Below are positions 3,583 through 58,558 of a DNA stretch of 64,000 nucleotides, one piece after another. Each line of letters opens with the position of its first letter. Positions within the stretch are counted from its first letter, which is position 1. The stretch comes from Verrucomicrobiia bacterium (lineage in GTDB: Bacteria; Verrucomicrobiota; Verrucomicrobiia; Limisphaerales; UBA11358), in NCBI GenBank assembly GCA_031290985.1, contig JARLJW010000014.1:186001-250000 (forward strand). Direction: 5' to 3'. The position numbers and the translations under genes were made by a program. The notes beneath the pieces are model-generated. The model searched no databases and was not told the DNA's origin. It was given only the letters and a program-made list of their open reading frames with translations.

Positions 3583-5031
3583 TCAAGCCGGCAGATACAC
3601 GGTGAAGGTGCTGCCGCGCCCGAGCGAACTGGACACCTCGATCGAGCCGCCATGGGCCTCCACGATGGCCTTGCAGATGGAGAGGCCGAGGCCGGTGTTG
3701 CCGGCGGTACGCGACTCGTCGGCCTGAAAAAAACGTTCGAAGACGCGCGGCAGGGCGCTGGGGGCGATCCCCAGCCCGCTATCCACCACGGTCAGCACCG
3801 CCGCGCCGCCCTCGATGTGGGTTGTGATCCAAATCTCACCCTCGTCGTAGTTGTAGTTGATGGCATTGGTCAACAGGTTGGTGACGACTTGGGCGATCCG
3901 GCTGGCGTCGCAAAAGATTTTGGCTTCCGCGAGGTCGCAATGGATCTGGACCCGGCGGGCAACGGCCAGGGCGCGGACGAATTTCACGGAATCCTGGACG
4001 ATGGCGGCGAGGTTGGTGTTTTCCCGGCGCAGCATTTCCTGGCCGGCATCCAGCCGGGCGAGTTCCAGCAGCGACTCGGTGAGCCGGCGCATTTTCTGGG
4101 CGGCGTCCAGGCTGGCGGCCAGGGCTTCGCGGTAATCGTCCGGGGTGCGTTCCCGCGCCAGGGTGGTCTGGGCCTCGGAAATCAGCACGGAGATGGGCGT
4201 GCGCAACTCATGCGAGGCGTCGGAGGTGAACTGCCGCTGCTGGGCAAACGCGGTCTCCAGGCGGGCGAAGGTGGAATTCAGAACCGCGGCCAGCCGGCCC
4301 AACTCGCTTTCGGTCTCCGGAACATTGATGCGCTGTGACAGGTCGCCGGAGGCGATCTTCAGGGCGGCGGCGCTGATCTTCTCCAGGGGGCGCAAGGCCC
4401 GGACCAGCAGCCACCACGCCGCGGCCAGGATCAGGCCAAGCACCCCGGCACCGCTGAAGAAGATCAACAGGGCAAAGTGGCGGGCCTCTTCGTATTCCGA
4501 ATCGACGATCCGCCCCACCAGCACACAATCGCCGTGTTCGGTCACGTGGTAGGCTTCGCGAAAACGGTGCCGGACGCGGATGTGGGTGCCGGTATCCTTG
4601 TTGGAGACGTGCGGGCGGGTCACGCCGTCGGGTGCGTTGGCGGATTCCCTGAACGGAGCGGGGTCGCCATGCGCCCAAAGCACAAAATAAAAGCTGTTGG
4701 TGTTCCGGGTGCCAAACAACCCATCGAAGGCGGGCGGCAGCCGCAGCGGGCCGGCATCCGGCTGATCCACGGGCGGTGAAGGGCGATTGGTCTGCTCGGC
4801 AGAAACATCCCCGGGCGTTTCGCCGGGCGGATGTTCGTCCGGATCCGGCGTCACTGGCCCAGAGAGCGCCGCGGTCAGCGTGGCGACCTGGCCCTCCAAC
4901 CGGTCGTCAAACTGGCTGAGCTGGTCGGCCAGGTGGATGTGACAAATGGCGATGCCCAAGCCGGTGAGGATGAGGATCAGCAAAAACGCCATCCAAAGAA
5001 GCAGCCGCCACTTGATGGAGTTGAAGATCAT
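3583..5031 (-). CDS. Sensor histidine kinase (OmpR-type pair 1)
   Basis: A 482-residue membrane kinase. Transmembrane segment 1 is at about residues 10-32, followed by a roughly 150-residue Pro-rich extracytoplasmic region, then transmembrane segment 2 (near GVLGLILAAAWWLL) and a HAMP linker. HisKA contains the phosphoacceptor in SHELRTPIS; the ATPase domain shows the N box (NLLTNAIN), G1 (DSGLGIAP) and G2 (NTGLGLSICKAI). The ATG at 5031 is chosen over an upstream TTG because the paralogue at 6438-7958 starts at the equivalent residue (FxSIKWRL). It follows its response regulator by 2 bp, so the pair is one operon. The stimulus is unknown. Confidence 0.92.
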   Translation of the reverse strand: MIFNSIKWRLLLWMAFLLILILTGLGIAICHIHLADQLSQFDDRLEGQVATLTAALSGPVTPDPDEHPPGETPGDVSAEQTNRPSPPVDQPDAGPLRLPPAFDGLFGTRNTNSFYFVLWAHGDPAPFRESANAPDGVTRPHVSNKDTGTHIRVRHRFREAYHVTEHGDCVLVGRIVDSEYEEARHFALLIFFSGAGVLGLILAAAWWLLVRALRPLEKISAAALKIASGDLSQRINVPETESELGRLAAVLNSTFARLETAFAQQRQFTSDASHELRTPISVLISEAQTTLARERTPDDYREALAASLDAAQKMRRLTESLLELARLDAGQEMLRRENTNLAAIVQDSVKFVRALAVARRVQIHCDLAEAKIFCDASRIAQVVTNLLTNAINYNYDEGEIWITTHIEGGAAVLTVVDSGLGIAPSALPRVFERFFQADESRTAGNTGLGLSICKAIVEAHGGSIEVSSSLGRGSTFTVYLPA

Positions 5032-5033
5032 CG

Positions 5034-5684
5034 TTATTCGATGCAATAACCCTGCCCGCGGCGGGTGGCGATGACCTCGGAGCCCAGTTTTTTACGGATG
5101 CTGAAGATGTGGACGTCGAGCAGATTGGACAGGGTGTCGTCGTTCTCGTCAAAGAGATGCTCGTACATTTCGGCGCGGGTGATGACTTCGCCGCGATGGA
5201 TGGCGAGGTACTCGATGATGGCGAATTCGCGGGCGGTCAGGACGACAGGGGTTTCACCGCGCAGGGCGGACCGGGCGCGGGTATCGAGGACGACGTCGCG
5301 GATCTCGATCTTGCTGCTCGTCTGGTTGGTGCTGCGGCGGATGAGGGCGCGGAGGCGCGCGAGCAATTCGGACAGGTCGAACGGCTTGACCAGATAATCA
5401 TCCGCCCCGGTGTCGAGCCCCTTCACGCGGTCGTTGTGTCCGTCCCGGGCGGTGAGCATGAGCACGGGCGTGCGTTTCTTTTTGCGGAGCCGTTCCAGCA
5501 GCTCCCAGCCGTCGAGCCGGGGCAGCATGACATCCAGGATGATGGCGTCGTAATTGAAAGCCTCGGCCTTATAGAGGCCGTCTTCGCCATCGCCGGCGGC
5601 ATCCACGGCATAGCCCTCCTCGCGCAGGGCCTTGACCAGGTTGCGTTGCAGGCGCGGCTCATCCTCCACGATCAGAATTCTCAT
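5034..5684 (-). CDS. OmpR/PhoB-family response regulator (pair 1)
   Basis: A 216-residue two-domain regulator. The receiver (1-115) has the acidic patch VEDEP, phosphoacceptor Asp51 in IILDVMLP, and the switch Thr and Lys in MLTARD and VKPFD. The C-terminal winged helix (about 125-216) ends RRGQGYCIE, normal for the Trans_Reg_C family. Its gene precedes the cognate kinase by 2 bp. It is highly similar to the regulator at 8236-8889, so the two systems are paralogous. Direct TTAAT repeats upstream (5771-5859) are plausible operators. Target genes are not known; the divergent small genes at 5900-6437 are the nearest candidates. Confidence 0.93.
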   Translation of the reverse strand: MRILIVEDEPRLQRNLVKALREEGYAVDAAGDGEDGLYKAEAFNYDAIILDVMLPRLDGWELLERLRKKKRTPVLMLTARDGHNDRVKGLDTGADDYLVKPFDLSELLARLRALIRRSTNQTSSKIEIRDVVLDTRARSALRGETPVVLTAREFAIIEYLAIHRGEVITRAEMYEHLFDENDDTLSNLLDVHIFSIRKKLGSEVIATRRGQGYCIE

Positions 5685-5732
5685 AGGTAACTTTGTCTAA
5701 GCCGGTTTCACCATAAGCCAACGGCTGCCGAA

Positions 5733-5748
5733 GGGCACGCTTTTTGCG
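5733..5748 (+). promoter_or_regulatory. Candidate sigma-54 (-24/-12) promoter
   Basis: GGGCACG, four bases, then TTGCG. Against the RpoN consensus TGGCACG-N4-TTGCW it misses only the first T and the final W, with exact GG-to-GC spacing. It reads toward the small genes at 5900-6437, with a predicted transcript start near 5760. The rpoN gene lies elsewhere in this window. No sigma-54 activator is encoded nearby. Confidence 0.45.
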
Positions 5749-5770
5749 AGGGTAAGCGGTGATTATAGCA

Positions 5771-5859
5771 GGCTTAAATTAAGCCATGATTAAATTTTGG
5801 CGGTCAAAATAAAAAATATATTTTGAAAAAAGCGCCGGTTTAATCGTGGCTTAATCGTG
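5771..5859. promoter_or_regulatory. Cluster of TTAAT-type repeats, possible response-regulator operators
   Basis: The gap between the divergent regulator (5684) and the first small gene (5900) holds the perfect palindrome GGCTTAAATTAAGCC (5771-5785), then GATTAAATTTTGG, then two direct copies of TTAATCGTG at 5840-5848 and 5851-5859 with an 11-bp period. OmpR/PhoB-family regulators bind tandem direct repeats with 10-11 bp period, which fits. The assignment to this regulator is inference. Confidence 0.45.
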
Positions 5860-5899
5860 CCTGGCGTAAGTTGTCAGTACCAAGCCAAATAAAAAAGTC

Positions 5900-6106
5900 A
5901 TGAAGCTGCCCATTGCCTTTCTTTTCCAACCGGCGCAAGAATTCACGGTGCGGATTGCCACCTCCGCCCAGGAGCTGACGCGGCGGCGGCAACCGCCGGC
6001 CTGGAACGGCGGCAACGGGCGAAACGGCGACCAGTGCGCCACGCAAAGCAAGCGGCGCTGGCGGACAAAATTCCGCCGGGACAGCCTGCAAATGGAGGCG
6101 GTATGA
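5900..6106 (+). CDS. Small basic protein of unknown function
   Basis: A 68-residue frame, not recognised. The N-terminus (MKLPIAFLF) is mildly hydrophobic; the rest is rich in Arg, Gln and Asn with no recognisable domain. Support for its being real is contextual: its stop codon overlaps the start of the next frame as ATGA (6103-6106), and it is the first frame after the candidate sigma-54 motif and TTAAT repeats. No Shine-Dalgarno is visible. It could also be untranslated leader for the next gene. Confidence 0.4.
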   Translation: MKLPIAFLFQPAQEFTVRIATSAQELTRRRQPPAWNGGNGRNGDQCATQSKRRWRTKFRRDSLQMEAV

Positions 6107-6243
6107 CCAGCGCATTGGCAATCTTGTCCGCCGCCGTGTTCCTGACCACCGGCCTGGTGGTCTTCGCGTGCGTGGTGCTCGCGGCGCGGGCGGACCGGCT
6201 GATGCAGCGGCTGCCGCTCGGTTCTGATTTCGAAGAAGCCTAA
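6103..6243 (+). CDS. Small single-pass membrane protein, unknown function
   Basis: A 46-residue protein with one clear transmembrane helix (about residues 4-29, ALAILSAAVFLTTGLVVFAC) and a short charged cytoplasmic tail ending DFEEA. GGAGG four bases before the ATG is a good ribosome-binding site. The start overlaps the stop of the previous small frame by four bases, suggesting translational coupling. It sits between two two-component systems; a small membrane accessory to one of the kinases is possible but purely speculative. No family recognised. Confidence 0.55.
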   Translation: MTSALAILSAAVFLTTGLVVFACVVLAARADRLMQRLPLGSDFEEA

Positions 6244-6251
6244 CCCCTAAA

Positions 6252-6437
6252 ATGCACAGCAACGCCAAGCAGAACATTGACAACCGCCGCGCGGCAGAGC
6301 GCAAGCCGGCCGGCACCGGCACCGCGTCTTCCGAAACCCGGTTTACGCCGAAACACCCGCATTCGCATCACGGCCTGCTGAAAGGACCGTATTATCCGCT
6401 GGTCAGCCACCTGCCGGCCGGACGAACGGCGACATAG
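6252..6437 (+). CDS. Small hydrophilic protein, unknown function
   Basis: A 61-residue frame starting 8 bp after the previous stop. It is polar, with a His/Pro-rich stretch (KHPHSHH) and the segment GLLKGPYYPL. No ribosome-binding site is obvious and no family is recognised. Its stop abuts the stop of the convergent kinase gene (6437/6438) with no room for a terminator between them. It may be the third gene of a small cassette or a chance frame. Confidence 0.35.
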   Translation: MHSNAKQNIDNRRAAERKPAGTGTASSETRFTPKHPHSHHGLLKGPYYPLVSHLPAGRTAT

Positions 6438-7958
6438 TCAGTCATTGATCGGGAGGCGCACGGTGCAGGTTGTGCCTGCGCTGCTCACGCTGGCCATTTC
6501 AATGGTGCCACCGTGCGCCTCCACGATCGCCTTGCAGATGGAGAGGCCAAGGCCGGAGTTGCCGGCGCCGGTGCGGGATTTGTCCGCCCGATAAAACCGC
6601 TCGAAGACCCGGGGCAGATCTTCCGGGGCAATCCCCTTCCCCGTATCCGCCACCGTGAACACCGCCAGATTCCCCTGCGCTTCCAGTTTCACGCGCACTT
6701 CACCATCCGGCTGGTTGTACTGGATGGCATTGGTCAGAAGGTTGGTGATGACCTGGGCGATGCGTTCGGAATCGCCGATGACGGACAACGGCAAAAGCTC
6801 GGAGACGAGCTTGACGCGGCGTTCTTCGGCCAAAGCCTGCACCAGTTCGACGCTGTCCTTGACGGTGCTGGCGAGGTCGAAGGGATGGCGTTTCAAGATT
6901 TCCTGACCGGCGTCGAAGCGCGCGAGTTCGAGCAGCGATTCGATGAGCTTGCGCATGCGTTGGGCGGCGCGCTGGCAGGCCTCGACGGTCTGCTTGTAGC
7001 CGGCGGCATCGCGCTCCCGGCCCAGCGCCATCTGGGTCTGGGTGAGGATGACGGAGACGGGCGTGCGCAGCTCGTGGGCGGCGTCGGAGGCGAACTGCTT
7101 CTGCTGGGCGAAGGCGGTTTCGAGGCGGGCGAAGGTGGAATTCAAGACGGCGGCGAGCTGGCCGAGTTCGCTTTCGGCCTCGGCAGAATTGATGCGCTGG
7201 GACAAATCGCCGGCGGCAATTTTCACGGCGGTCGTGCTGATCGCCTGAATGGGACGCAATGCCCGCGAAACAAACCACCACCCGCCGGCCAGGCCGAGAA
7301 TTAAAATGGCCACGCCAACCGCAGTCAATTTAGTGGCTGCCACGTTCAATTCATGGAGTTCCGGAGCAATGGAACAGCCCACCTCAATTATTTCGCCGGA
7401 CGGCAGAGTGTTTAAAACGACCCGCTGTTCTGCCAGATTCATCACCACCGGCTGCATAACTTCTTTTCCCCGCAGTTTTTCGACATGGTTCACCTGCTCA
7501 AAATAATAATCATACGCCAGCCCAGACTGCCGTTCCGGATAATTGTCCGAGTGCGCGATCGCCGTCTCATTCTGGACGCCGGGTTTAATGCCACCGCCAA
7601 CCCTGATTTTAAAATAAAAACCATTGGGGTCGTTGGTTCCAAAAAAATGCGCATCTTCCGGGGGCAGATGAAATTCAGTGCGCGGACGAAAATTTTGGCC
7701 GGGCGGGCCGTCGTCGGGGAACTGGCCGCGCGGCGGCCGGTCAAACGGCAGCCCGCCGCCATCCGCGCCACGCGGTGGTGGACGGTGCATGGCATTCCCC
7801 AAAACGCCAACCCGGCGATGCAGTTCATCGTCGATGCGGCGGAACTGGCGGTTGCGCTCCAATTGATAGGAAGTGAAACCGAAGCCGGCCAGCACGACCA
7901 CAAGAATCAGTCCGTACCAGAGTTGCAAGCGCCACTTGATGGATTTGAACAGTTTCAT
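6438..7958 (-). CDS. Sensor histidine kinase (OmpR-type pair 2)
   Basis: A 506-residue paralogue of the kinase at 3583-5031. Transmembrane segment 1 (about 12-32), a Pro/Gly-rich extracytoplasmic domain of about 170 residues, transmembrane segment 2 (AVGVAILILGLAGGWWFVS), HAMP, HisKA with AHELRTPVS, and HATPase with NLLTNAIQ, DTGKGIAP and NSGLGLSICKAI. The sensor domains of the two kinases share little beyond a FGTNDPN/FGTRNTN-like motif followed by F-Y-F, so they probably sense different or drifted signals. GGGGGA lies just before the chosen ATG at 7958. A 277-bp gap containing a dispersed repeat separates it from its regulator, unlike pair 1. Confidence 0.92.
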   Translation of the reverse strand: MKLFKSIKWRLQLWYGLILVVVLAGFGFTSYQLERNRQFRRIDDELHRRVGVLGNAMHRPPPRGADGGGLPFDRPPRGQFPDDGPPGQNFRPRTEFHLPPEDAHFFGTNDPNGFYFKIRVGGGIKPGVQNETAIAHSDNYPERQSGLAYDYYFEQVNHVEKLRGKEVMQPVVMNLAEQRVVLNTLPSGEIIEVGCSIAPELHELNVAATKLTAVGVAILILGLAGGWWFVSRALRPIQAISTTAVKIAAGDLSQRINSAEAESELGQLAAVLNSTFARLETAFAQQKQFASDAAHELRTPVSVILTQTQMALGRERDAAGYKQTVEACQRAAQRMRKLIESLLELARFDAGQEILKRHPFDLASTVKDSVELVQALAEERRVKLVSELLPLSVIGDSERIAQVITNLLTNAIQYNQPDGEVRVKLEAQGNLAVFTVADTGKGIAPEDLPRVFERFYRADKSRTGAGNSGLGLSICKAIVEAHGGTIEMASVSSAGTTCTVRLPIND

Positions 7959-8054
7959 GGAGTCCCCCATTCCATGCCTCTCACGCTGGCTGGTTCTGCC
8001 GAAGCGAAAGGCTTCCGGCGTCTTTGGAGATACGCGCGCCGGGATTGAAGCCCA

Positions 8055-8092
8055 CCCCTCACCCTAACCCTCTCCCCTCGGAGGGGCGAGGG
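8055..8092 (+). repeat. Dispersed CCCTCACCC-type repeat, copy 1
   Basis: This 38-bp GC-rich element contains an internal CCCCTC/GAGGGG hairpin. It matches 56204-56242 in opposite orientation at nearly every position. It lies between a response-regulator gene and its kinase gene. Translated on the minus strand it gives SPLRGERVRVRG, a string that, from memory, recurs in spurious small proteins of many genomes carrying this repeat. Confidence 0.75.
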
Positions 8093-8235
8093 AACACCGT
8101 TGCAAGTGTTTTGAACTGCGATTATCTTCTGCCACGCCAGCATCTTCAGGCACGCCAGGAAAAGCGCCAGCGGGCCGGCGCACTCCAAAACCTCACGGCG
8201 ATAGGCCGTGGCAATCAAATTATTTGCGCCGATTT

Positions 8236-8889
8236 TCATCCTTCAATGCAGTAGCCGTGGCCGCGGCGGGTGGCGATGAATTCCGCTCCGAGTTTTTTGC
8301 GGACGTTGGAAACATGGACATCAAGGAGATTGGAGAGCGAGCTTTCGTTCTCGTCAAAGAGGTGTTCGTAAAGCTGGGTGCGGGTGACGACTTCGCCACG
8401 ATGGAGGGCCATGAATTCCACGAGGGAATATTCGCGGGCGGTGAGTTCCACGGGCTGGTCCTTGAGCGAAACGATGCGGGCGGCGGTGTCCACCCGCACC
8501 TCGCCGATCTCGATGACATTGCTGGTCTGGTTGACACTGCGGCGGATGATGGCGCGGAGGCGCGCAAACACCTCGGCGAGGTCGAAGGGCTTTACGACAT
8601 AATCGTCCGCGCCGGTGTCAAGGCCCTTCACGCGGTCGCGGGTCTGGTCGCGCGCGGTGAGCATGAGCACGGGGGTTTTCTTCGTCTTGCGGAGGCGCTT
8701 GAGGATTTCCCAACCATCCAGGCCGGGCAGCATGACGTCGAGCACGATGGCGTCGTAATCGGTGCCCTCGGCGTTGAAGAGGCCGTCCTCGCCGTTGTCG
8801 GCGGTGTCCACGGCGTACCCTTCCTCGCGCAAAGCCTGGGCGAGGCTGGCGAGCAAATCAGGTTCGTCTTCGACAATCAGGATTCTCAT
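8236..8889 (-). CDS. OmpR/PhoB-family response regulator (pair 2)
   Basis: A 217-residue regulator with receiver motifs VEDEP, IVLDVMLP (phosphoacceptor Asp51), MLTARD and VKPFD, and a C-terminal winged helix ending RRGHGYCIEG. The start MRILIVEDEP matches its paralogue at 5034-5684; an in-frame ATG eight codons upstream is less likely. The kinase gene follows only after 277 bp. CCTTAAGG at 8947-8954, in the upstream region, and CTTAAGG before the YHYH gene (9152-9158) might be related binding sites, but this is weak. Function is inferred from family only. Confidence 0.93.
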   Translation of the reverse strand: MRILIVEDEPDLLASLAQALREEGYAVDTADNGEDGLFNAEGTDYDAIVLDVMLPGLDGWEILKRLRKTKKTPVLMLTARDQTRDRVKGLDTGADDYVVKPFDLAEVFARLRAIIRRSVNQTSNVIEIGEVRVDTAARIVSLKDQPVELTAREYSLVEFMALHRGEVVTRTQLYEHLFDENESSLSNLLDVHVSNVRKKLGAEFIATRRGHGYCIEG

Positions 8890-13020: not shown

Positions 13021-13410
13021 GTCGGAAAGAAGTCGGAATGAATCGGAATCTATTCGGAATGAAGATTTTTTTTGACCGGGGTAAAATCATGACAAATTTA
13101 AAATTAAAAATGAAAATTGAGGAAAAGCCCAATGAATCAAGCGGGGGGGTGGACAGCCTTTGTCCAACCGGGAGGGGTACAATGAAGGCATGAGCATGGA
13201 AAATGCAAAATTAAGAAACTGGATCCGGGATGAGGAGCAAGAACGCAAACCGACGCAAAGGGGCGCCCCCTCATCCGCCCTGCGGGCACCTTCTCCCCCG
13301 AGGGGGCGAAGGGCCGAAGCCGGGCGCTCCGAAGGCAGGAGAACCATGCAAGGCCTTGGGAATCAAGGTCCGTCAGGCTTGGTCAGGCTTTGTCAGACCC
13401 TAGAATTTTT
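13021..13410 (+). repeat. Composite dispersed repeat, copy A
   Basis: This element has four conserved blocks in order: a GTCGGAAAGAAGTCGG-type block (13021-13064, 42/44 identical to copy B), an AT-rich block (AATTTAAAATTAAAAATG), the imperfect palindrome GGACAGCCTTTGTCC within 13151-13171, and a 66-bp block from CATGCAAGGCC to CCTAGAATTTTT (13345-13410, 63/66 identical to copy B). The 173 nt between the palindrome and the last block are unrelated to copy B. Copy B is 58041-58435, inverted. The last block ends 67 bp before the HTH-like gene. Confidence 0.85.
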
Positions 13411-13428
13411 ATTTTTTTTAAAAGCACC

Positions 13429-13477: not shown

Positions 13478-14056
13478 ATGAACACGATCCGTAGCGGAAA
13501 AATCGCCCGGTTGCCGCCTGAAATCCGGGAGCAATTGAATCAGCGGCTGGCCAATCATGAATCGAGCACTTCGCTCGTGAAATGGTTGAATGCGTTGCCG
13601 GAGGTTCAAGCGGTCGTGACGCAAGAATTTGGCGGCAAAGCCGTCATGAAACAAAATCTGCATGAATGGCGGCATGGCGGTCATGCGGAGTGGCGGTGGG
13701 AACAGGCGGCGCGGAAAATCGTGGAACGGCTCCATGCGGACAGCAATGAACTGACCAAGGTGGCCGACGGATCGGTCGCGAATATCACGGCGCAATGGCT
13801 GGCGGCGCGTTATGTGGTGGGGTTGAAACAATTGAAGGGGCGGGCCGGCGACCGGGAGGCGGCCTGGAACCAAATGCGGGAGTGTTGCCACGATGTGCTG
13901 GCGCTGCGGCGCATGGAACATCTCGCGCAACGGCTGGAATTTGAGCGGGTCCGGGCCGGGCTAAAGTTTGAGGATGGAGGATTGAAGATGGAGGGGGAAT
14001 GCAAACTGACGACTGGAAAGTCGCCAGCACCGGCAGGCTCGAAAGCTGTTTTGTAA
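13478..14056 (+). CDS. Small HTH-like protein of unknown function, repeat-associated
   Basis: A 192-residue protein, mostly helical. The N-terminal part (IARLPPEIREQLNQRLANHE, then WLNALPEV and NLHEWRHGG) resembles the helix-turn-helix start of phage Mu gp27-like/DUF3486 proteins; from memory, similar short proteins recur in verrucomicrobial genomes. The central part (about 60-165) is helical and Arg/Glu-rich. The last 25 residues are encoded by purine-rich repeat DNA and by the left arm of the inverted repeat 14032-14233, so the natural C-terminus may have been replaced. Upstream lie a tandem 15-mer and composite repeat copy A. DNA binding is inferred; no catalytic motif is visible. Confidence 0.6.
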   Translation: MNTIRSGKIARLPPEIREQLNQRLANHESSTSLVKWLNALPEVQAVVTQEFGGKAVMKQNLHEWRHGGHAEWRWEQAARKIVERLHADSNELTKVADGSVANITAQWLAARYVVGLKQLKGRAGDREAAWNQMRECCHDVLALRRMEHLAQRLEFERVRAGLKFEDGGLKMEGECKLTTGKSPAPAGSKAVL

Positions 14057-31186: not shown

Positions 31187-32203
31187 TTATTCCGGTTTCG
31201 GTTCTTCTTTGACCGTCGTGTCAATCAGACCCGGTTCAAAATTCATTCCCAACGACAACTGCAATGACGTCAGCTTGTCCTTGATTTCGTTCAGCGACTT
31301 CTTGCCGAAGTTGCGATACTTGAGCATCTCCTGCTCGGTCTTCATCGCCAACTGGCCGACCGTGGTGATGTTCGCGTTGTTCAGGCAGTTCGCCGCGCGG
31401 ACGCTGAGCTCGATCTCGTTGACGCTCATGTTGAGAAGCTTCTTCATCTTCATCTTCTCGTCGTCCTGCTTGTCCGCGGCTTCCTCGAATTCAACGGCGT
31501 TCTTGTCGTAGCCGACAAACACGTCGAGGTGATGCGCGAGAATGGCCGAGGCCTGCGTCAGCGCGTCATCCGGCGTGATGCGTCCATCGGTCCAGATTTC
31601 CATGACCAGGCGGTCATAGTCCGTACGGTTGCCCACGCGCGCCGCTTCCACGTTGTAGCGCACCCGGGTCACCGGCGAGAACAGCGAGTCGATCGCCACG
31701 ATGCCGATGGCCTGGCCCGGCTTCTTGTTCTCGTCGCTCTGGCAGAAACCGCGGCCGACCTTGACCGTCAGTTCCATCTCAAATTTCTTCTTCTTGTCCA
31801 GCGTGCAGATGTGCTGGTCGGGGTTCACCAGTTCAACATTCTGGTTGGTCTGGATGTCGGCCGCCGTCACGGCGCCTTCCTTGTTCACCGAAAGCAACAG
31901 GGTCTGCTCATCGCGGGTGTGGGCCTTGAACTTGACCTTCTTCAGGTTCAAGACGATGTCCGTCACGTCTTCCACGACGCCGTCCACCGTGGCAAATTCA
32001 TGCATCGCGCCGTCAACTTTCAGCGAGGTGATGGCCGCGCCTTCGAGCGAGGACAACAGCACCCGGCGGAGGGAGTTGCCGATGGTATGGCCGTAACCGG
32101 TTTCAAACGGGTCGGCGATGAACTTTGCGTAATTTTCCGTGGCGGAGGCATCATCTTTCTGCAACCGCTTGGGCATTTCAAAACGTCCTAAACGAACTGG
32201 CAT
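31187..32203 (-). CDS. rpoA: RNA polymerase alpha subunit
   Basis: A 338-residue alpha subunit. The N-terminal dimerisation domain includes GYGHTIGNSLRRVLLSSLEG; the C-terminal domain, which contacts UP elements and activators, includes LNNANITTVGQLA and YRNFGKKSLNEI. The N-terminus has a short extra segment before the core (MPVRLGRFEMPKRLQKDD). It sits in the usual rpsD-rpoA-rplQ order of the alpha operon. Confidence 0.98.
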   Translation of the reverse strand: MPVRLGRFEMPKRLQKDDASATENYAKFIADPFETGYGHTIGNSLRRVLLSSLEGAAITSLKVDGAMHEFATVDGVVEDVTDIVLNLKKVKFKAHTRDEQTLLLSVNKEGAVTAADIQTNQNVELVNPDQHICTLDKKKKFEMELTVKVGRGFCQSDENKKPGQAIGIVAIDSLFSPVTRVRYNVEAARVGNRTDYDRLVMEIWTDGRITPDDALTQASAILAHHLDVFVGYDKNAVEFEEAADKQDDEKMKMKKLLNMSVNEIELSVRAANCLNNANITTVGQLAMKTEQEMLKYRNFGKKSLNEIKDKLTSLQLSLGMNFEPGLIDTTVKEEPKPE

Positions 32204-57406: not shown

Positions 57407-58558
57407 CGCCACCCGCCGATCCGCGACCATCCAACGTGGACAACCTCGCGCTGCGACTGGGTGACCTGTCCGGCAAGAACACTGCGCAGCCGTCACTTTG
57501 AGGCCTGGCCCGCCCTTCGCTGCCCGCACCTCCATCGTGCCCCGACCTTCCTCCCGTGCTTCCAAAATTCCAGGGTTTGACGGCCCTTGACGAGGCTTGA
57601 CCGCCCTTGCGCAAAGACCGTTGGCAGAGGCCGATCGTCCTCGTCCTCGAATGCACGATTCAGGCTTCTGGTTCCTGTATCCATTCATGATTTAATTTTT
57701 TGGTTGGATTTGGTTGGATTTACTTGGATTCCCAATGTTTTCGGCCCTATCTGTGTTCATCCGTAGTTGTCCATGCGGTATTACAAAATACCGGCCCTTC
57801 GACATTGGGCGTTGAATGTTGAATGTTGAATGTTTTCCTCTTTTCGCCTTTTCGCTTGGTTTTGTCCCTCCTCGGTTTTCATTCGTGTTCATCAGTGATT
57901 ATCCGTGTGATTTACCTAAGCGCCATAAGGTGATCGAGGTTGGCGCATTCGGGCTTCGGCATTCGGATTTAGTTCGGATTTCGGATTTCGGCCTTCGGTT
58001 TTTATCCGTGCCCATCCGTGGTTAAATTTCATAATTTTTTAAAAATTCTAGGGTCTGACAAAGCCTGACAAAGCCTGACGACCCTTGATTCCCAAGGCCT
58101 TGCATGGTCGCCCGTGCGGCTCGCACCCGTACGCAAGTACCCACTGCCTCCATAGCATCTGCCAGTCTGGCACGGCACCCAATCGTCCGCGTACGCCTTG
58201 GAAACTTGGACGCTTGGAGGTTGGTCCTTGGAGCTTTTCTTCATTCGTGCTTCGTCATTCATCAAGGCATAACTCTACCCCAGCCGGTTGGACAAAGGCT
58301 GTCCAACCCTCCCGCTTGATTCTTGGCCTTTTTCACATTTTCCATTTTTTAATTTTGAATTTCTCCTCACTCTAGCACCGCCAAACAATTCCTTCTTTCC
58401 GAATAGATTCCGATTTATTCCGACTTCTTTCCGACCCGCTCGACGCCCGTTTTACCCGCTAAATTCCGCAAATTCACACGAATGCCCGCTGTTTCCCCTC
58501 TCGCCCCATTCAGGACGGGCTAAAAACACTCGTTGCCGTCGTGTACCCAGAACTCCCT
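57407..58558. other. 1.15-kb intergenic region built of several repeat families
   Basis: No credible gene. In order it holds: a degenerate relative of composite-repeat block 4 (57563-57609, GTCAAG/CCCTGGAATTTT on the minus strand); tandem TTGGTTGGATT units (57699-57733); CCACGGATGG-family half-sites (57747-57772, 58003-58024); TGTTGAA tandem units (57806-57834); TTCGGATTTCGG units (57964-57998); and composite repeat copy B (58041-58435). Confidence 0.65.
58041..58435 (-). repeat. Composite dispersed repeat, copy B
   Basis: Inverted relative to copy A (13021-13410). Blocks: 58392-58435 (GTCGGAAAGAAGTCGG type), an AT-rich block, the palindrome block 58284-58304, and the CATGCAAGGCC...CCTAGAATTTTT block 58041-58106. 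Distances between blocks are 87 and 177 nt, against 86 and 173 nt in copy A. The 177-nt segment is unrelated to the one in copy A; it contains CTCCAAGGACCAACCTCCAA and GTACGCGGACGATTGGG strings. No gene adjoins its block-4 end. Confidence 0.85.

Follow-up and report, generated by a model that had tools for sequence, protein, structure and literature searches.

Gene-ward arrays of 10-bp direct repeats and a solo TerS-like gene: a candidate two-part system in Verrucomicrobiia

A composite repeat and its copies

The stretch of DNA considered here, referred to as the window, comprises 64,000 nucleotides of contig JARLJW010000014.1 (positions 186,001 to 250,000) from the draft genome of a Verrucomicrobiia bacterium (assembly GCA_031290985.1; 5.98 Mb in 113 contigs, 94% complete). 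It contains two copies of a composite repeat that run in opposite directions on the one contig, each facing its own gene. Copy 1, on the forward strand, begins with block A (13021..13064), which has TCGGAAT repeats about 11 bp apart, and continues with a palindrome, M (13148..13169), a palindromic dispersed repeat within its interior (13260..13314) and block R. The last has a constant head (13344..13368), a decamer array of four RTYMRRS cores at 10 bp intervals (13362..13398) and a tail, CCCTAGAATTTTTA (13398..13411). The forward-strand gene that starts 61 nt past the edge of block R as set for the orientation counts below (13478..14056) encodes a 192 aa HTH protein related to the terminase small subunit (TerS), and is termed TerS-like below. 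Copy 2, on the reverse strand, has block A at 58392..58435, palindrome M at 58286..58308, a hairpin mini-element (58106..58132) adjoining block R, and then the constant head (58083..58107), a four-core array (58053..58089) and the tail (58040..58053) of block R itself. Between it and the next gene are an extra decamer array of ATCCAAC type (57703..57729) and, nearer the gene, a strict three-core match, GTCAAGC/GTCAAGG/GTCAAAC (57575..57601), both on the reverse strand; the latter is within the longest ORF, yet upstream of the start picked by the gene finder. The letters used for families (A, M, R, S, N, T, U, V and W) are our own.

An earlier note on this DNA had described two inverted copies with shared blocks in a common order, and these are real: in a window self-BLAST 13021-13179 pairs with 58435-58276 (83%, E 9.9e-39) and 13343-13411 with 58108-58040 (96%, E 1.3e-24), and side-by-side reading agrees. 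The left-block identity of 42/44 and the middle gap of 173/177 nt given there stand on comparing the copies side by side, and it was right to see a constant frame enclosing replaceable DNA. Counting the window copies, block A has 13 BLAST matches in the genome and block R 29; an iterated R profile over the fetched loci yielded 36 rows, two of which merely repeat the window copies. Twelve units, assembled by us from block positions, carry both ends, with A before R on one strand. As for the other copies of A among those counted for orientation below, one is further upstream in a two-ended unit, another adjoins the end of a contig, and for two no R was found. Collecting outer-block copies genome-wide, as had been proposed, shows that the A-to-R order and polarity recur while length does not, because the cores of the 12 two-ended units span 346-629 nt; conserved length has to be given up as a rule.

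The swapped interior is replaceable, as the note had it, but not unique. The interior of copy 2 (query residues 1-170) recurs at 87% in a copy on contig C38, and part of the copy 1 interior is a palindromic repeat present at several other places in the genome. Unit interiors are thus mosaics made up in part of other dispersed repeats, the very outcome that had been named as counting against the earlier reading, here found for part of the interior. The constant-frame units have likely spread by some mobile process. Features essential to what follows go beyond that reading, and are direct repeats phased at 10 bp, strict orientation towards the next gene and a paired TerS-like gene.

A structured RNA with a variable region had been suggested for the composite, and the R head can indeed form a five-pair hairpin. 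The window has no Rfam match, the covariance folding that was called for gives, as the consensus fold of 34 R copies, five pairs with a covariation term of 0.03, and variation tracks the direct repeats rather than stems, so that such an RNA, which we have rejected, is scarcely credible. Orientation set by the replication strand was also rejected, as both R orientations are found on single contigs such as C43, C38 and C85.

Hairpins in array regions, including that at 58106-58132 of the window, differ in their stems (GTGCG..CGCAC, GTCCG..CGGAC) and end in a tail resembling GGCCAYC. Of two T-type modules (L082:2440-2500 and L074:100-170), one holds a hairpin with a GGCAATC tail that the other lacks, and the two look like a filled and an empty site. 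The hairpin mini-elements are co-oriented with arrays, 37 versus 4. Elsewhere in the window, 3598-8889 contains diverged repeat pairs (5037-5684 with 8242-8889, 74%; 3598-4429 with 6459-7293, 70%) that resemble a duplicated gene pair.

Period, core and concerted units of the decamer arrays

Block R opens with its constant head, has three repeats of about 10 bp after it and closes with TAGAATTTTTA. From copy to copy the repeats differ, but within one copy they change jointly (GTCAGGC, GTTGGGC, GTTAGCC, GTAAAGC), and the agreement within copies amounts to 515 matching positions versus 428 ± 7 when shuffled, for 31 copies after omission of two rows, one without an anchor and the other with two units. 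In 81.5 kb of intergenic DNA, triple direct repeats number 91 at period 10, with 8 at period 11, 6 at period 12 and none at period 13; one dinucleotide shuffle contained no period-10 triple, and coding DNA has 0.06 per 10 kb. Periods 6, 7, 8 and 14 are also elevated in the same DNA (75, 110, 29 and 15 triples). Twenty stretches of the genome chosen regardless of R (68.8 kb intergenic) have 13 period-10 triples and none at period 11, and the corresponding figures for 20 stretches from genomes of the same genus (47.1 kb intergenic) are seven and one, all seven being W-like or of other types.

Sorting of the triples by unit sequence, done twice, gave the families R, S, N, T, U, V and W, with eight triples left unassigned in one round and nine in the other. 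One degenerate core, RTYMRRS followed by N3, fits every array family of the genome except W. Across 184 kb of our own loci, searched on both strands with overlaps counted, a strict pattern of three RTYMRRS cores has 147 matches at a spacer of 3 bp and none at spacers of 1, 2, 4, 5 or 6, with 28 and 14 at spacers 0 and 7; the coding DNA of these loci has none. Because the core was derived from these same arrays, it is the exclusive spacer and not the number of matches that constitutes the test. The R-independent genome stretches have 15 strict matches and the 20 stretches of genus relatives have none. With a 7-bp core and a 3-bp spacer, there is one core per turn of DNA, and so all cores lie on one face.

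The concerted variation is not confined to block R. Core differences within arrays are smaller than after shuffling in each of four sets, at 1.14 versus 2.64 for this genome, 0.80 versus 1.01 and 1.58 versus 2.05 for the genomes designated G151 and G154, and 1.36 versus 2.26 for the TerS loci. Arrays have 3 to 8 units in the four sets compared, and one R copy (L073) has two, so slippage could homogenise the units.

W-type triples (ACACGGATGA, ACGCAGATTA and similar) occur at L213:4340 and 4454, L220:7325, L236:9343 and position 57878 of the window. They share the 10-bp period but not the core, and some are in convergent regions.

Orientation towards the next gene

Genes were called with a simple hexamer gene finder of our own that superseded noisy ORF-length calls; its retraining switched one region (L067) from same to opposite. 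Where a downstream gene is visible, it is on the strand of the repeat for 27 of 28 copies of R (5 of 33 have no visible gene) and for 14 of 14 copies of A (2 of 16 have none). Among 66 intergenic regions with non-W triples, counted over all the data fetched from this genome, none has them in mixed orientation, and the downstream gene is on the same strand in 53, on the opposite strand in four and not visible in nine. For the 21 regions that were fetched via S, N or T matches, and not via R or A, the figures are 18, one and two. Tandem regions are the informative ones because ‘same’ is automatic in divergent regions, and in these the count is 19 same versus 3 opposite. Both neighbouring genes are visible for 34 array regions, and their arrangement is tandem in 22, divergent in 12 and never convergent, versus 34 convergent regions among 217 in the survey stretches plus the window. 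W triples are without clear polarity (five same, three opposite). The polarity also holds in 20 stretches from each of two other genomes, none with mixed regions: G154 has 18 regions same, one opposite and one without a gene, and G151 has 14 same, two opposite and two without. Twenty-one strict matches in G151 fell inside called genes, which are probably false gene calls. K-mer strand asymmetry yielded nothing decisive.

One explanation for such dispersed repeats is non-autonomous mobile DNA, moved by a transposase or through recombination, that has no regulatory function and is tolerated upstream of genes, with the terS-like gene as a passenger. The mosaic interiors, the hairpin inserted in one T-type module and missing from another, and the patchy, lineage-specific expansion described below are all in its favor. 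Blind insertion would hardly generate 53 versus 4 polarity with no mixed regions, and the exact 10-bp phase is kept across families, and so we consider this explanation unlikely.

The downstream genes are diverse as judged by eye and include those for enolase, SufD and LeuC. The region upstream of the enolase gene has five period-10 triples in the source genome, and none was present in the flanks of 29 loci from other genomes of the genus. Promoter-like sequence adjoining the enolase gene, again read by eye, is conserved in the relatives that lack arrays, and on this ground a core promoter function for the arrays was rejected.

Regulators of the OmpR/PhoB type bind repeats 10-11 bp apart. The arrays could be ordinary operators for an activator or response regulator upstream of a −10-like TAGAAT, in which R and S do end, with the terS-like gene a mere target; polarity and upstream location are as expected of such sites. 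The arrays of G151 and G154 are, however, without a TAGAAT tail, enolase has its own adjacent promoter-like sequence in array-less relatives, the downstream genes are diverse, and it leaves unexplained why the sole array of a genome should be at the terS-like gene (see below). Ordinary operators are quite unlikely to be the answer.

The TerS-like protein

All 14 members of an alignment of the TerS-like family (A2) match PHROG 426, terminase small subunit, the best at 3.4e-9 and the window member at 0.0015. Nine of the 14 match the Pfam family Phage_Mu_Gp27 (PF11985), the best at 1.1e-4; the window member has 0.064 with 14.1 bits, which is below the cut-off of 28. No transposase model in Pfam, PHROG or NCBIfam was matched, and NCBIfam had nothing relevant. 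The predicted structure is helical (pLDDT 83.9, pTM 0.57), and the Foldseek list is headed by small terminases, yet at E about 3. A PDB sequence search with the TerS-like profile gave two weak matches, neither of them a TerS, and a search of phage records gave no protein match at E 0.01.

A terminase large subunit is encoded by the next gene in G261 (Terminase_6C 8.5e-22, Terminase_6N 4e-8) and in G264 (Terminase_6N 1e-7). Large-subunit-like matches are confined to these two among the 30 host loci (L380 and L389), both of them without an array, and with two queries the flanks of the other 28, about 1.5 kb each side, have no such match. On viral contigs with relatives of the gene the large-subunit homologue is just downstream in at least 10 of 43 (two queries), and none of the 43 has arrays. 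We use the name TerS-like, and not TerS in the sense of a working subunit, because the large subunit is not adjacent in array-bearing loci. A KTSC-domain gene is upstream in L374, and similar small ORFs were seen by eye elsewhere. L366, L370, L371 and L372 have, upstream of the full gene, an ORF like the C-terminal part of the TerS-like protein.

Pairing of the gene with arrays

The window TerS-like protein has 17 matching segments in the source genome. Of 12 inspected loci, L099, L100 and L094, the last being the gene in the window, have strict sense arrays close upstream, and another three show no upstream DNA because the contig starts there. Across 320 genomes of the order the family is present in at least 40 at E 1e-10, and counts of the gene across genomes are lower bounds, since no more than eight candidates were scored in any genome. 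It is in at least 20 of 21 array-rich genomes (those with at least five matches) versus at least 20 of 299 others (Fisher p 9.5e-20, which ignores phylogeny), and within the genus eight of eight array-rich genomes have it versus at least three of 41 others (p 3.7e-7, likewise ignoring phylogeny). G147, which is 81% complete, has 14 array matches and the gene was not detected there at E 1e-10.

For the best TerS-like locus of each of 30 genomes, a three-core array was sought within 300 nt either side. On the strand of the gene it is present at the 3′ side in 19 loci, just upstream in five and on either side in 21, where 0.04 3′-side loci would be expected under uniform placement and 0.26 with arrays restricted to 15% of the genome. 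In nine loci the strand of the gene carries no three-core array within that distance; these include the best-scoring locus of the source genome (L363) and L386, whose one array is on the opposite strand. The 19 loci with 3′-side arrays span 11 families of the order. Eighteen of these arrays fall between −120 and +69 nt from the stop codon, 11 being inside the ORF, four across the stop and three directly after it; in G085 (L374, contig G085:C35) the TerS-like ORF reads past its array to 676 codons. Ten of the 16 genomes among these 30 with seven or fewer array matches have one adjoining the TerS-like gene, and in four of the five single-match genomes (G026, G085, G276 and G160) it is the sole array that does so. 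The leader of the TerS-like gene in G118 consists of an S-type array with TCTAGAAATTATGAA after it, and this leader resembles S modules of the source genome that end in TAGAATTTTTAAAAATATGAA or similar.

A proposed mechanism

Starting from the observed grammar, 10-bp phasing, polarity, concerted units and gene pairing, the reading we consider fairly probable is that the oriented arrays and the solo TerS-like protein are a two-part system in which the arrays are operator- or pac-like binding sites. The TerS-like protein probably binds the arrays, by analogy with phage TerS, which recognizes a pac site close to the gene that encodes it. At first the array would have been the operator, or pac-like site, of the TerS-like protein itself, and copies of it, some with a leader ending ATGAA, would then have spread to positions in front of further genes, on which the protein could probably act through them. 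The A...R units of the window would be modules of this upstream kind in which A and R are separated by additional small repeats. Counting against this reading are the nine loci with no array on the gene's strand nearby, the array-bearing G147, the W-type triples, the weak profile matches of the window protein, the viral relatives without arrays and the sequence-independent binding reported for an isolated SF6 TerS domain (see below). A path of the DNA touching one HTH domain per turn would, we infer, favor the 10-bp period. The arrays may rewire expression, as upstream regions are often >1 kb and those of housekeeping genes are included.

A related possibility is that the protein, domesticated from phage packaging, and its arrays, serving in their hundreds as oriented pac-like sites, mark genes for directional transfer in helper capsids, the solo TerS-like protein and a helper phage or gene-transfer agent together packaging chromosome segments directionally. 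The kinship with TerS, the array in or beside the terS-like gene and the fixed direction would all fit, and staphylococcal TerS of phage or island origin starts packaging at pseudo-pac sites of the host (PMC8494744). Against it, a large-subunit-like match is absent from the flanks in 28 of 30 loci (two queries), viral relatives of the protein lack arrays, and the polarity tracks the next gene, a feature for which packaging would have no need. Packaging is doubtful as an explanation, and a TerS-derived binding protein is favored over active packaging because there is no large subunit beside the gene in those 28 loci.

If the proposed partnership of TerS-like protein and arrays is correct, a phage DNA-packaging protein would be the source of a partnership between a bacterial gene and dispersed repeats, besides that of the REP/RAYT kind. 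It would also suggest a candidate for what binds repeats that lie upstream of genes in strict orientation, of which the TAACTGA repeats are an instance described with no proven partner, and raise a testable question, namely whether a TerS-like protein reads direct repeats one helical turn apart.

Distribution across the order

The strict pattern was surveyed over the 320 genomes of the order. The source genome has 217 matches and five others of its genus have 118, 100, 50, 29 and 13; genomes of other families of the order have 587, 189, 178, 35 and 33, with most genomes having 0-3. A reversed-pattern control gave 0-3 almost everywhere, the exceptions being 11 in G043 (17 matches with the pattern itself) and 10 in G154 (178 matches). 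The arrays of G154 are mostly of ATTAAAC types and those of G151 of RTCAAAC types, and the flanks differ between them. The expansion is patchy and lineage-specific. BLAST with block R found it in none of 58 other genomes, and among 35 genomes of the genus S is present in none, N-like arrays in two and T-like in one. A scan of named genomes, possibly excluding the source genome, with an R-head pattern gave 69 loci, all rejected as chance on inspection of their flanks.

Comparison with known systems

No paper on decamer arrays together with a solo small terminase was found in a search of mostly open-access literature other than bioRxiv preprints. Mobile promoters, BOX and similar elements are modular composite repeats that place homologous segments upstream of unrelated genes; we know of none with phased decamers or a TerS-like partner.

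The phage TerS/pac systems (SPP1/SF6, Mu Gp27) have a related protein family in common with the present case, and direct repeats at the cognate gene (PMC4737164). The SPP1 pac site contains direct repeats and extends across the start of terS, a parallel to the arrays at the TerS-like genes; TerS displays its HTH motifs in a ring, and the isolated DNA-binding domain of SF6 TerS reportedly shows weak, sequence-independent binding (PMC4737164). In contrast, the gene here is chromosomal and solo in array-bearing loci, and the decamers are in exact phase and recur in front of unrelated genes at hundreds of sites. Phage-inducible chromosomal islands are similar in that a TerS outside a complete phage directs packaging (PMC8494744), but no satellite gene set or capsid functions were seen here in flanks of about 1.5 kb, and arrays number in the hundreds. 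REP/REPIN sequences and RAYT have in common with the present case one gene family and many dispersed short elements, some of them beside the gene (PMC3733652). The arrays here are, however, direct repeats with strict gene-ward polarity whereas REPs are tagged palindromes, and the partner is TerS-like without a match to a transposase model while RAYT is a Y1 (HUH) transposase.

Heptamer direct repeats, TAACTGA, are known from Beggiatoaceae, Cyanobacteria and Bacteroidetes (MacGregor 2015, PMC4679880). These too are direct repeats between genes, in one genome mostly in forward orientation ahead of start codons, with no functional pattern in what is downstream, some relatives that have no repeats and a patchy spread (PMC4679880). 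They have period 7 with one fixed heptamer, in contrast to the period 10 and core RTYMRRS of the present arrays, are often a few nt from the start codon, and the partner genes proposed for them are only general candidates (PMC4679880).

Two further repeat types were seen in the source genome. Period-7 triples, GAATGAC-like by eye, number 110 in 81.5 kb and so match the decamers in frequency where arrays abound. At L247:11780-11860 (G000:C94, about 31780-31860) there are about ten TTCCGNA/TTCGGNA units with a 10-bp period and variable spacers, an array that is not of the RTYMRRS kind.
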